From positions 1 to 64,000 of the forward strand of contig CAMAMB010000002.1 of the NCBI GenBank assembly GCA_945836755.1: a stretch of 64,000 nucleotides of DNA. Reading direction: 5' to 3'. The position numbers and the translations under genes are program-made. Shown here in pieces: positions 6,565 through 58,080 of this stretch. The stretch is from an uncultured Bacteroidales bacterium (GTDB lineage Bacteria; Bacteroidota; Bacteroidia; Bacteroidales; Bacteroidaceae). The notes under the pieces are model-generated. The model did not search any database. It was not told the origin of the DNA and saw only the letters and a list, made by a program, of their open reading frames with translations. Within the stretch, counting starts at the first letter, position 1; the number at the start of each line of letters is the position of its first letter.

Positions 6565-7106
6565 AATTGCATTGGAGCGGAACAGGGTCCGCGCGTCTAA
6601 TGGTTAGAGACCGGGGGTTAGCCCAGGCTTACAGTCAGCAATGAGGGAACAACGGCCCAAGGGATGCCCTGCTGTAAGGCTATAAGGAAGGCTGTACCGG
6701 TAATGATGATGAAACTCCGAGTATGTAAGGATTTGAGTGCCTTCAAGTCTCTGTAATCCGACCCTACGTCTCGCCGTATAGGCTACCACGCATATCGGCA
6801 CGCCATTGAACAAGTCAGCTATCTCGGCATTTCTATTCTAATTGATGAGTATCCCAATCTAACCAGTACAGCCTGTATTTTTGATGGGGCAAAGATAAGG
6901 ACGCACTACTTGCACACCAAACAAAACCTTCTTTTTTTTCGTCTCAGCCCATCTTTTGATAATTCGCAGGAAAATCCTTCTACGCTGATAGGATTTTTTA
7001 ATACTTTTACGGCTTCAATGGCGCATGCCGCACGTGCGGCGCATGCCTCTGCCGAGGCCGCCGCGGCGTGTGGCTTTTCACCCGGACTATCTAAGCCCCC
7101 CCTCAC

Positions 7107-10064: not shown

Positions 10065-10235
10065 GCGGCTTGCACCCCGTTCGCCGCATGCTCGGCGTCA
10101 TCGTCGCCCGGTCGGTCGACATGCATACATCGACCGATCGACGCCCGTACTTCAGGCTGTGGACGCTCGTCTACCGAACGGCCGACGAACGTCCACCGAA
10201 CAGGCGACGATGAGGCCATGTACATGGAGCGACAC
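10065..10235. repeat. Dispersed 22-bp-unit repeat element, copy A (4 direct units plus an inverted left end)
   Basis: Units gacatgcatacatcgaccgatc, gacgcccgtacttcaggctgtg, gacgctcgtctaccgaacggcc, gacgaacgtccaccgaacaggc at 10118-10205; left end tcatcgtcgcccg and right end aggcgacgatga are inverted relative to each other. Confidence 0.85.
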
Positions 10236-27072: not shown

Positions 27073-28383
27073 ATGCTATCCACCGCTCAGCGACAACAGA
27101 TTATACAACTCGTACGCCGGCAAGTAGTACCGGCCATTGGCTGCACCGAGCCCATCGGCGTGGCCTTAGCTGTGGCCCGCGCGCGAGAGACGCTGGGACA
27201 GCTGCCTGCCAGGATAGAAGCCCGCCTCAGTGCCAATATCATCAAGAATGCCATGGGAGTAGGCATACCGGGCACGAGCATGGTAGGTCTGCCTATCGCC
27301 ATTGCCCTCGGCGCTCTCTACGGCCGTTCCGACCTGTGTCTCGAAGTCCTGCGTGACTGTCCGCCCGATGCGGTCAAGCACGGACAAGAGTTCATTGCGC
27401 AAGGACGTATCCACATCACACAAGCCTCTGAGACCGAAGATAAGCTCTACATTGACGTAGAGGCTACGGCCCAAGATGGCAGCAGAGCGCGCGCCCTCAT
27501 CAAAGGCAGCCACACCCACTTCGCCCGCATTGAGCTGAACGGGGAAATCATCTTTGCCGACACCGAGGACGGACCGGCGACCTCTGACCCCACGACTGAC
27601 GAGGAGGTAAGCCTTACACTCCGAAAGGTCTTCGACTTCGCCACCACTACCCCACTCTCCGAAATAGACTTCATCAATGAAGCCGCGCAGCTCAATATGG
27701 AGGCGGCCCGCAGCTCCCTGCAAGGCAACTACGGACACTGTCTCGGCAAGGCGCTCAGCCGTCCCCTCGGACGCGGCATTATGGGCGAGAGCATCTTCTC
27801 CCACATTCTCTCGGCCACCAGTTGTGCCTGCGACGCACGAATGGCCGGCGCCGCCATCCCCGTCATGAGCAACTCGGGCTCGGGCAACCAAGGCATCTGT
27901 GCCACAAACCCCGTGGTGGTCTTCGCCAACGAGAACCATAACACCGCTGAAGAGCTCACACGAGCCCTCATGCTGAGCCACCTCACCGCCATCTACATCA
28001 AGCAGCATCTCGGTCCACTATCAGCCCTCTGCGGCTGCGTGGTGGCAGCCACAGGCTCCAGTTGCGGCATCACCCTGCTCATGGGAGGTGGGTACGAAGA
28101 GGTCTGCGCCTCGGTGAAGAATATGATAGCCAACCTTACCGGCATGGTCTGCGACGGCGCCAAGCCAAGCTGTGCCCTCAAACTTACCACCGGGGTCAGC
28201 ACCGCAGTACTCTCGGCCATGCTGGCCATGCAAGGCAACTGCGTGAGTGCGGTCGAGGGCATCGTAGATGAAGACGTAGACCGCACTATCAGCAACCTTG
28301 TCAAGATTGGGGCTGAGGCCATGAACGAGACCGACCGTCTGCTCTTGGACATCATGCTCCACAAGTCTGACCCTCACCAATAG
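27073..28383 (+). CDS. L-serine dehydratase/L-cysteine desulfidase-like protein (YhaM/CyuA, UPF0597 family)
   Basis: VPAIGCTEPIGVALAVARARE, MSNSGSGNQGICATNPVVVFA, MVCDGAKPSCALKL. Confidence 0.9.
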   Translation: MLSTAQRQQIIQLVRRQVVPAIGCTEPIGVALAVARARETLGQLPARIEARLSANIIKNAMGVGIPGTSMVGLPIAIALGALYGRSDLCLEVLRDCPPDAVKHGQEFIAQGRIHITQASETEDKLYIDVEATAQDGSRARALIKGSHTHFARIELNGEIIFADTEDGPATSDPTTDEEVSLTLRKVFDFATTTPLSEIDFINEAAQLNMEAARSSLQGNYGHCLGKALSRPLGRGIMGESIFSHILSATSCACDARMAGAAIPVMSNSGSGNQGICATNPVVVFANENHNTAEELTRALMLSHLTAIYIKQHLGPLSALCGCVVAATGSSCGITLLMGGGYEEVCASVKNMIANLTGMVCDGAKPSCALKLTTGVSTAVLSAMLAMQGNCVSAVEGIVDEDVDRTISNLVKIGAEAMNETDRLLLDIMLHKSDPHQ

Positions 28384-28422: not shown

Positions 28423-28470
28423 CGATATGCCGTTATCAGGCTCTCAGCGAGTACTGATAACGGCATATCG
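28423..28470. terminator. Perfect 17-bp inverted repeat (terminator-like)
   Basis: cgatatgccgttatcag ... ctgataacggcatatcg followed by gcattt; between convergent genes. Confidence 0.75.
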
Positions 28471-28484
28471 GCATTTCGTATGCG

Positions 28485-28640
28485 GTTGGGCTCATTTCGG
28501 AGATGCTCCGCGCCATCGTCGCCCGTTCGGTAGACGACCGTACATCGTTCGGGCGACGGGCATACACTGAGCGGGCGACGGGCGTACACCGCTCGGACGA
28601 CGATGGGCTGGAGCAGCCGAGGAATGGCAGGAACGGTCGT
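28485..28640. repeat. Dispersed 22-bp-unit repeat element, copy B (3 direct units plus an inverted left end)
   Basis: Units gacgaccgtacatcgttcgggc, gacgggcatacactgagcgggc, gacgggcgtacaccgctcggac at 28533-28598; ends gctccgcgccatcgtcgcccg / cggacgacgatgggctggagc are inverted repeats. Confidence 0.88.
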
Positions 28641-28694: not shown

Positions 28695-29957
28695 CTACTC
28701 TTCAGGGACTTTCTTTATCAACATCGAAGCCACAAAGGTGAAGATACAGAGCACTGTGGCTATGATAAAGAAATTGAGATAGCCACTACGTTCCTGTAGA
28801 TAGCCCGCCACCATGCCGGGAAGCATCATGCTGAGTGCCATAAACCCGGTACAGAAGGCGTAGTGTGACGTAGACTTGGGCCCTTTGGAAAAGAGCATAA
28901 GGAAGAGCATGTATGCCGTAAACCCAAAGCCGTAACCGAACTGTTCGACGAAGACACAGGCACTGATGAGAGGCAGGTTGTCGGGTTGTGCATAGGCGAG
29001 GAAGATATACACCACGTCGGGCAGGGTAATGCTCAGCACCATGGGCCAAAGCCAACGCTTCAGCCCCCCTCTTTCGGCACACACACCGCCAAGTATGCCG
29101 CCGAGCGTAAGCCCTACGACGCCGACTGTGCCCTGTACGAAGCCGAGGTCGCTCGTGGTCATGCCGAGTCCGCCCTCGCTGACGCTGTCTAACATGAAGA
29201 GGGGGCATATCTTGACAAGCAACGCCTCGGGCAGACGATAGAGGAGCATGAAAGCGATGGCGGCACCTACCGCCGGCTTACGGAAGAAGTCTAAGAAGGT
29301 GAGCACGAAGTCGCGTACCATGTCTTTGACCTTGGCAGGACGGCGCTCACTGTCGGCGATACACGAAGGCAATGCCTTGAGATGATAGAGGAAGAAGCAC
29401 ACGAAGGAGGCCGACAAGGCGGCAAAGACGAGCGACCATGCCTGTTGGGGCTTGTTGTACAACTCTAAAGTGCCGGCCAGCATGATGAGCAGACCCTGAC
29501 CTACTATCATGGAGATGCGATAGAACGTAGACCTGATGCCGACGAAGAAGGCCTGTTCACGACGATTGAGCGCAAGCAGATAGAAGCCATCGGCCGCGAT
29601 GTCGTGGGTGGCACTGCTGAAAGCCAGCAGCCAGAACATGACCAAGGTCCACCTGACGAAATGCGTGGTGGGAATGGTCAAAGCCAAACCTGCCAGCGCA
29701 GCACCGACAAGTAGCTGCATGAGCACTATCCACTGGCGCTTTGAGCCGAACACCTCAACCAGGGGACTCCAGAAAGGCTTGATGACCCACGGCAGATAGA
29801 GCCAGGAGGTGTAGAGGGCAATGTCGGCATTGGAGAGACCCAGGCGCTCATACATCACAGTGGCCACAGTCATGACCACGACGTATGGCAGCCCCTCGGC
29901 AGTATAGAGGCTGGGGATCCAAAACCATGGAGAGAATTTCTTGGTAAGTGAAGACAT
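28695..29957 (-). CDS. MFS transporter, AmpG-like
   Basis: 12-TM-type protein; FWIPSLYTAEGLPYVVVMTVATVMYERLGLSNADIALYTSWLYLPWVIKPFWSPLVE. Confidence 0.82.
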   Translation of the reverse strand: MSSLTKKFSPWFWIPSLYTAEGLPYVVVMTVATVMYERLGLSNADIALYTSWLYLPWVIKPFWSPLVEVFGSKRQWIVLMQLLVGAALAGLALTIPTTHFVRWTLVMFWLLAFSSATHDIAADGFYLLALNRREQAFFVGIRSTFYRISMIVGQGLLIMLAGTLELYNKPQQAWSLVFAALSASFVCFFLYHLKALPSCIADSERRPAKVKDMVRDFVLTFLDFFRKPAVGAAIAFMLLYRLPEALLVKICPLFMLDSVSEGGLGMTTSDLGFVQGTVGVVGLTLGGILGGVCAERGGLKRWLWPMVLSITLPDVVYIFLAYAQPDNLPLISACVFVEQFGYGFGFTAYMLFLMLFSKGPKSTSHYAFCTGFMALSMMLPGMVAGYLQERSGYLNFFIIATVLCIFTFVASMLIKKVPEE

Positions 29958-30102
29958 AAGTGTGTGAACGTTAGACAGAAAGGAGAAGCAGGACAGTGAG
30001 AACCTGCATGGCTGGAAGAAAAAGAAGAGGTGCACCAACACGTAACTGTCTTGGCGCACCATATAAGGGGGAAGCACTCAGTGGAGACGACCGTACATGG
30101 AG

Positions 30103-41134: not shown

Positions 41135-41330
41135 TGACGGCCGAACCCGGATGTACATCCACGCATCGTCGCCCAACCAGCAGACGAGCGTACATCAACC
41201 AGGCGACGAGCGTACATCAACCAGACGACGAGCGTACATCAACCAGGCGACGAGCGTACATCAACCAGGCGACGGTTGTACACCGAACGGGAGACGCTGC
41301 CTCCGAGCATGGCAGCAACGGGCGCACGTA
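41135..41330. repeat. Dispersed 22-bp-unit repeat element, copy C (4 near-identical direct units plus 1 degenerate unit, inverted left end)
   Basis: gacgagcgtacatcaaccaggc-type units at 41183-41270, degenerate unit gacggttgtacaccgaacggga at 41271-41292; left end catcgtcgccc. Confidence 0.92.
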
Positions 41331-57908: not shown

Positions 57909-58080
57909 AGGACATGCACATCGGGAATTTCTACAAGTACATCTAAGATTTCCTACAAGTACATCTAGCTTTTCCTACATGTACATCTAGGTTTTCCTAC
58001 ATGTACATCTAGGTTTTCCTACATGTACATCCAGGTTTTCCTACATGTACATCCAGGTTTTCCTACATGTACATGGATGA
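57909..58080. repeat. 22-bp tandem repeat array D (cctacatgtacatctaggtttt, about 7-8 units)
   Basis: GTACATC/GCACATC cores at 57916, 57937, 57959, 57981, 58003, 58025, 58047 and 58069 (GTACATG): spacing 21, then 22 x6. Confidence 0.95.

Follow-up and report, generated by a model that had tools for sequence, protein, structure and literature searches.

The window analysed here, a stretch of 64,000 nucleotides from an uncultured Bacteroidales bacterium, contains a short repeat element with inverted ends and internal tandem units between two convergent genes. These genes had been named yhaM-like and ampG-like; their convergent arrangement was borne out, and they match PF03313 and PF07690, respectively (Table 1). 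The constant core reaches from CCATCG to CGATGG and consists of CCATCGTCGCC arms flanking three 22-bp direct units. Weaker inverted arms of about 23 nt lie on either side of the core, which brings the whole element to roughly 28490-28629. The preliminary description also reported a terminator with a 17-bp stem next to the element. The stem is perfect (28423-28439/28454-28470), but the terminator reading is not supported, as a terminator scan of the element and of this stem returned nothing and no T-run follows the hairpin.

Table 1. Positions in the window of the element, its parts, the neighbouring genes and related repeats.
Feature	Position	Strand	Remark
Four-unit copy, 116 bp	10098..10213	+	
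Flanking gene, SDH_alpha family (PF03313), YhaM-like	27073..28383	+	
Perfect 17-bp inverted repeat beside the element	28423..28470	.	no T-run; outside the family
Left outer arm, type B, GATGCTCCGCG adjoining the core	28490..28512	+	family-level outer-arm similarity
Element core, inner arms and three 22-bp direct units	28513..28606	+	same ends in 12 intact copies
Left inner arm CCATCGTCGCCCGTTCGG	28513..28530	+	no variation among 12 copies at positions 2, 3, 5-8 and 11 of either side
22-bp unit 1 GACGACCGTACATCGTTCGGGC	28533..28554	+	
22-bp unit 2 GACGGGCATACACTGAGCGGGC	28555..28576	+	
22-bp unit 3 GACGGGCGTACACCGCTCGGAC	28577..28598	+	3' portion also forms the inner portion of the right inverted arm
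Right inner arm, reverse complement CCATCGTCGTCCGAGCGG	28589..28606	-	
Right outer arm, type B, reverse complement CTGCTCCAGC adjoining the core	28607..28629	-	
Flanking gene, MFS transporter (PF07690), AmpG-like as named in the preliminary description	28695..30077	-	
Five-unit copy, 138 bp	41163..41300	+	four units almost identical (local expansion)
AT-rich 22-bp array CTACATGTACATCTAGGTTTTC	57931..58074	+	commonest sister family in the genome

The left end GCTCCGCGCCATCGTCGCCCG, starting at 28505, and the reverse complement of GCTCCAGCCCATCGTCGTCCG at 28594 are identical at 17 of 21 positions, the same figure as reported before. Likewise, the letters of the three units agree with the consensus proposed for them save for single-base departures (e.g., GCATAC in unit 2), and the identity of the core at a lag of 22 is 0.68, whereas the best lag (15-39) in 1000 shuffles did not exceed 0.53. 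On its own, the inverted repeat is only moderately improbable, as 6 of 1000 shuffles reach it. However, the element is not a chance arrangement because 12 intact copies exist genome-wide and the pattern of the terminal inverted repeat (TIR) matches six times in the window against 0.26 expected. The proposed architecture of one inverted unit followed by a number of direct units describes the sequence of the copy at 28513-28606 but fails as a general rule: in most sibling copies the left arm and the first direct unit form a palindromic junction, CGTCGCCCGNNCGGGCGACG, with no full inverted unit.

The genome is a 2.25-Mb draft of 94 contigs, 85% complete, and besides the intact copies it contains 2 decayed ones. 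The other copies also carry the TIR, and the 12 intact copies support the idea of a dispersed element whose ends match and whose number of direct units varies. The intact copies are exactly 94 bp (n = 9, three units), 116 bp (n = 1, four units) or 138 bp (n = 2, five units) long, without intermediates, and the units follow the consensus GACG[GA]GCGTACA[CT]CG[AG][CT]C[GA]GGC. Units within an element resemble each other more than units of different elements (identity 0.762 vs 0.695; permutation p = 0.0005). The pattern is clearest in the copy at 41163-41300 and suggests that the core was dispersed first and the units were later duplicated locally. The TIR pattern has 33 sites in this genome and 0 for the reversed pattern, compared with 0-9 sites in the other genomes of a sample of 400 Bacteroidaceae genomes; the element family is above background in this genome only.

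Genes were called with a simple custom codon-score script, and individual starts are therefore to be read as approximate. All eight copies on the six gene-called contigs are intergenic, despite a coding fraction of 0.79, with neighbouring genes in convergent (4), tandem (3) or divergent (1) orientation. A conserved protein can be excluded because the 22-bp steps, not being a multiple of three, change the reading frame; in addition, none of the eight tested copies lies in a scored gene, and the ORFs over the element on both strands are not common to the copies. Neither of the two results named in the preliminary description as contrary to it, a TIR missing from other copies or a protein-coding interval, was thus obtained.

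The element has the general features of a MITE, as it is short, carries terminal inverted repeats, occurs in multiple copies and lacks a transposase ORF. A target-site duplication at a fixed offset was not detected: at most 2 of the 14 copies share a 4-mer at the same offset, which is the chance level; the true boundary of the element is uncertain. Beside the copies in the draft (85% complete, 94 contigs) no related autonomous transposon with the same ends was seen. Neither the element nor the AT array had a blastn match among 72,556 plasmids, and a viral origin was rejected, as the one IMG/VR contig matched by the AT pattern proved to be a low-complexity ACATGT run. By the yhaM-like protein the closest relatives among the genomes compared are uncultured Bacteroidales and Alloprevotella MAGs, in a genus group that includes Prevotellamassilia timonensis. 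No orthologous interval is available for an empty-site comparison since in the nearest relatives (L009, L010) the yhaM-like gene is followed by another gene, and the relatives are too distant for such a comparison (best protein identity 78%, one genome per species compared).

The outer arms of the copies are of two kinds, type A (ATGTACATSCMG) and type B (GATGCTTSSCG), and either kind can stand at the left or the right end, whatever the other end carries. They are interchangeable modules which are also present in other repeat families of the genome: the type A arm (ATGTACAT) is the module of the AT-rich arrays, and the type B arm resembles the module of the 21-bp family ACGGCAATGCTTCC. At least five unit families with a length of 21 or 22 bp were found, i.e., the element family, the AT arrays, TTTCGGCCGAAACCACATCTGT, ATGCCACCTTGC and the 21-bp family AATGCTTCC. 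The AT-rich 22-bp arrays (TACATGTACATCYAGTTTTTCC) comprise hundreds of units, located in the window and on contigs C3, C5, C7, C9, C10, C11, C14, C24 and others, and their true lengths are underestimated because contigs C3 and C5 start and end inside arrays. The GTAC core is less dyad-symmetric in the GC units than in these AT arrays. The TTTCGGCCGAAACCACATCTGT arrays are enclosed by an inverted repeat (GTGTCAGTGGTTT / AAACCACTTGACAC) at C1:71523 and C5:21418 and thus show the same plan as the element at 28513-28606 with another sequence. At three places, ATGCCACCTTGC arrays come with a leader and a tail that are fixed, and the 22-bp family ATGCCACCTTGCATTCGGGCAG has the fixed leader GTAACATTGGGCCGA and the tail ATTTCACTC at C2:68164, C2:85719 and C6:25937, a plan that resembles BrickBuilt of Porphyromonas gingivalis (see below).

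The repeat statistics were determined for 449 kb of the genome taken in stretches (about one fifth), of which 89 kb are intergenic. Exact intergenic self-matches of at least 10 bp accumulate at lags of 21 (16), 22 (44), 42 (21), 44 (30), 63 (7) and 66 (17), and each remaining lag from 6 to 69 yields 0-2. Accordingly, 41 of the 52-55 listed intergenic tandem arrays have a period of 21 or 22, and five more of 42 or 44. This sharp constraint to 21/22 bp is the surprising part of the result. In non-ORF DNA of a same-genus sample the excess is weaker than in this genome, with 12 of 31 matches at lags 14-30 falling at 21/22. The non-ORF parts of 80 Bacteroidales loci gave 13 matches at lag 22 compared with 7 and 3 at lags 20 and 23, with multiples of 7 and 18 also prominent, and one small 50-kb stretch of E. 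coli showed no excess at lag 21/22. Searches of open-access papers turned up no publication on intergenic repeats with a 21/22-bp period in Bacteroidales.

The search in other genera was seeded with GTACAY and is silent on other cores; other 21/22-bp families without GTACAY exist. Runs of three GTACAY cores spaced 22 bp apart number 415/399 (two strands) in this genome, 168/171 in G146 and 21/26 in G402. About 11-17 were counted in G196, G209, G235 and G343 and a few in G069 and G079, the nearest relatives, whereas most of the 400 family genomes have 0. For the GTACAT pattern the comparison between genomes is what counts, because the reversed pattern also matches palindromic arrays. Such arrays are found in several further genera of Bacteroidaceae, enclosed by inverted arms in the clearest cases, and the rest of the GTACAY unit differs in each species. 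In G146 (L293, 6594-6858) three 22-bp arrays form a palindrome of an outer array, an inner GTACACC array and an inverted outer array, and in G343 the arrays lie between inverted arms inside longer composite repeats; both have the same plan as the element at 28513-28606 but other sequences. G343 also contains hairpin-like repeats of about 150 bp with the ends GGTGGCAGAGGTGGCA / TGCCACCTCTGCCACC, which are nested beside GTACATG arrays (L286, L291; ~1200-1350, 2240-2500).

Ten of the 12 copies fold to a long hairpin (z -2.0 to -7.0); the two exceptions are those at 41163 and on contig C45. The copy at 28513-28606 folds strongly on both strands (z -4.5 to -5.0). Its stem GCCCG/CGGGC has 5 bp about a 2-nt centre, and CGTC pairs with GACG. 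When the nine three-unit copies are aligned, 75.7% of the arm cells are paired, compared with 74.6% after partners are shuffled among copies, and no measure of stem covariation exceeded the shuffles. The outer arms likewise match the partners of other copies as well as their own (6.85 vs 7.0 of 14 positions; random 3.5). The arms are therefore conserved as sequence and not by pairing. This favours recognition as duplex DNA over selection for an RNA stem, although a transcript may still be made. Rfam gave no match over the element or over the sister elements of other species.

In plan and taxon the closest described relative is the BrickBuilt MITE of P. gingivalis (PMC4596501), of which about 20 dispersed copies are described. 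Both belong to Bacteroidales, are strictly intergenic, contain no ORF and carry short tandem units, variable in number, that are flanked by end segments with inverted repeats. In BrickBuilt, however, the units are 23 nt long, a non-repetitive leader and tail of up to ~300 nt are present, the 12-nt TIR GAGACCTTTGCA is IS5-like and putative target-site duplications occur in 3 of 4 copies (PMC4596501), whereas all 12 intact copies of the element have 22-bp units and lengths of 94+22k, end with CCATCGTCGCC and show no such duplications. In the 449 kb the BrickBuilt TIR has 2 matches at ≤1 mismatch, with ~2 expected. MITEPgRS/MITE464 and the P. gingivalis repeats of 22, 23 and 41 nt (PMC4596501) likewise represent inverted-repeat elements with internal tandem repeats in the same order of bacteria; they differ by 41-nt units and IS5-like TIRs, and no sequence relation is shown.

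BIMEs and REP/REPIN sequences resemble the element as short palindromic intergenic modules that form mosaics, occur in both orientations and belong to species-specific families (PMC2817692, PMC3116915, PMC3733652). REPs, however, carry an unpaired GTAG or CGTC tag, form a hairpin feasible in RNA and occur as singlets or inverted doublets (PMC2817692, PMC3116915, PMC3733652), whereas the element consists of direct arrays at an exact 22-bp step. The defining features of REPs are a stem of 8-9 bp and, beside it, a tetranucleotide tag that is unpaired, with a loop of 4-5 and a CCA tail in the CGTC families (PMC3733652); in the element CGTC is paired in a 5-bp stem around two nucleotides. Since unit length, ends, target-site duplications, tag and hairpin differ, the element is set apart from both BrickBuilt and the REP/BIME families. 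CRISPR arrays are also made of short direct repeats, but this possibility was rejected as the units of the element are contiguous, without unique spacers, and none of the 12 copies adjoins cas-like sequence on flanks inspected by eye. Elsewhere in the genome, at C26:26580-27570 (L094, ~1780-2770), ORF translations look like a CRISPR array that is read through (repeated peptides of the IHAPTWGAT / LPRGERG type).

We consider it reasonably probable that the element is a non-autonomous, non-coding, dispersed mosaic palindromic repeat of the MITE/BIME type with an internal 22-bp minisatellite, whose array most likely represents phased putative protein-binding sites. A fixed inner core recurs at 12 places with identical ends and 3-5 units in exact 22-bp steps. 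Whole cores would have been spread by a machinery acting in trans, and the number of units would then have been altered locally through tandem duplication. The arms and the GTACAY unit core, often within the uninterrupted palindrome ATGTACAT, would be conserved as duplex DNA. As 22 bp correspond to about two helical turns, the repeated cores would lie on one face of the DNA, and the array may form a row of putative sites two turns apart. Uninterrupted dyads like ATGTACAT cannot make an RNA hairpin without a loop, which together with the two-turn spacing suggests sites for a dimeric DNA-binding protein as the putative binder.

Dispersed intergenic copies with constant ends, no ORF and a core of 94-138 bp could also be classical MITEs, i.e., insertion-sequence remnants with TIRs recognised by a DDE transposase and a minisatellite trapped by chance. 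This is the model proposed for BrickBuilt, which has IS5-like TIRs and some target-site duplications (PMC4596501). For the element we regard it as rather unlikely: the copies give no signal of target-site duplication, the ends are mosaic and not fixed, the IS5-type TIRs of BrickBuilt and PgRS are near background in the 449 kb (2 and 4 matches, ~2 expected) and a non-exhaustive search found no autonomous partner with the ends of the element. Mobilisation of a REP/REPIN-type repeat by a RAYT (TnpA-REP) transposase via single-stranded hairpins, with which the folding of 10 of 12 copies is compatible, seems quite improbable. The genome encodes one RAYT-like Y1_Tnp protein (MPNHLHAII, YVLENP), and subclass 2.6 TnpA-REP of Bacteroidetes reportedly have atypical structures at their flanks, of which copies lie at other sites of the genome (PMC6006769). 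However, the visible flank of the RAYT-like gene contains no 21/22-bp array, the other flank being lost at the contig end, stem covariation specific to the copies is absent, CGTC is paired instead of being an unpaired tag, and the centre of the palindrome has 2 nt. The gene (L237, C93:1-1036, minus strand) is cut by the contig start and has a long low-complexity repeat in its N-terminal half; RAYT flanks in relatives show no consistent 21/22-bp arrays, and as mobiliser of the element it is a lead only.

The position between convergent 3' ends and the strong fold on both strands would suit a structured RNA, namely a long hairpin that is transcribed and at which the transcripts of both genes end or by which they are stabilised. 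This is improbable given the missing T-run, terminator call and Rfam match, the two copies that do not fold, the lack of covariation and the copies in tandem and divergent intervals. Short intergenic repeats are usually regarded as slippage products or dead transposons. Neutral minisatellites arising by replication slippage, without selection or dedicated machinery, would account for the local homogenisation of units and for high local duplication as at 41163-41300. Slippage alone, however, explains neither the identical ends at 12 places nor why unrelated families are all exactly 21 or 22 bp long and avoid 19, 20, 23 and 24, and we consider it hardly likely.

That at least five families have exactly 21 or 22 bp and almost none 19, 20 or 23-24 points to a physical ruler, with proteins arrayed along the helix, or an enzyme duplicating two turns per step, as candidates. 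We tentatively propose, as a possibility with less than even chances, that Bacteroidaceae share a class of palindromic intergenic elements of 21/22-bp modules with a unit sequence that differs per species, of which the element would be one family. They would be built and maintained in bursts by a conserved DNA-binding or DNA-copying machinery, which probably recognises GTACAY on duplex DNA at two-turn spacing. The GTACAY arrays in several genera make the ruler idea testable in culturable gut bacteria. In practical terms, 21/22-bp arrays break draft assemblies and yield false small ORFs. Apart from the repeats, the window contains on the minus strand at 6684-6873 a Bacteroidales-1 (suggested 6S) RNA (Rfam RF01693, 88.9 bits).
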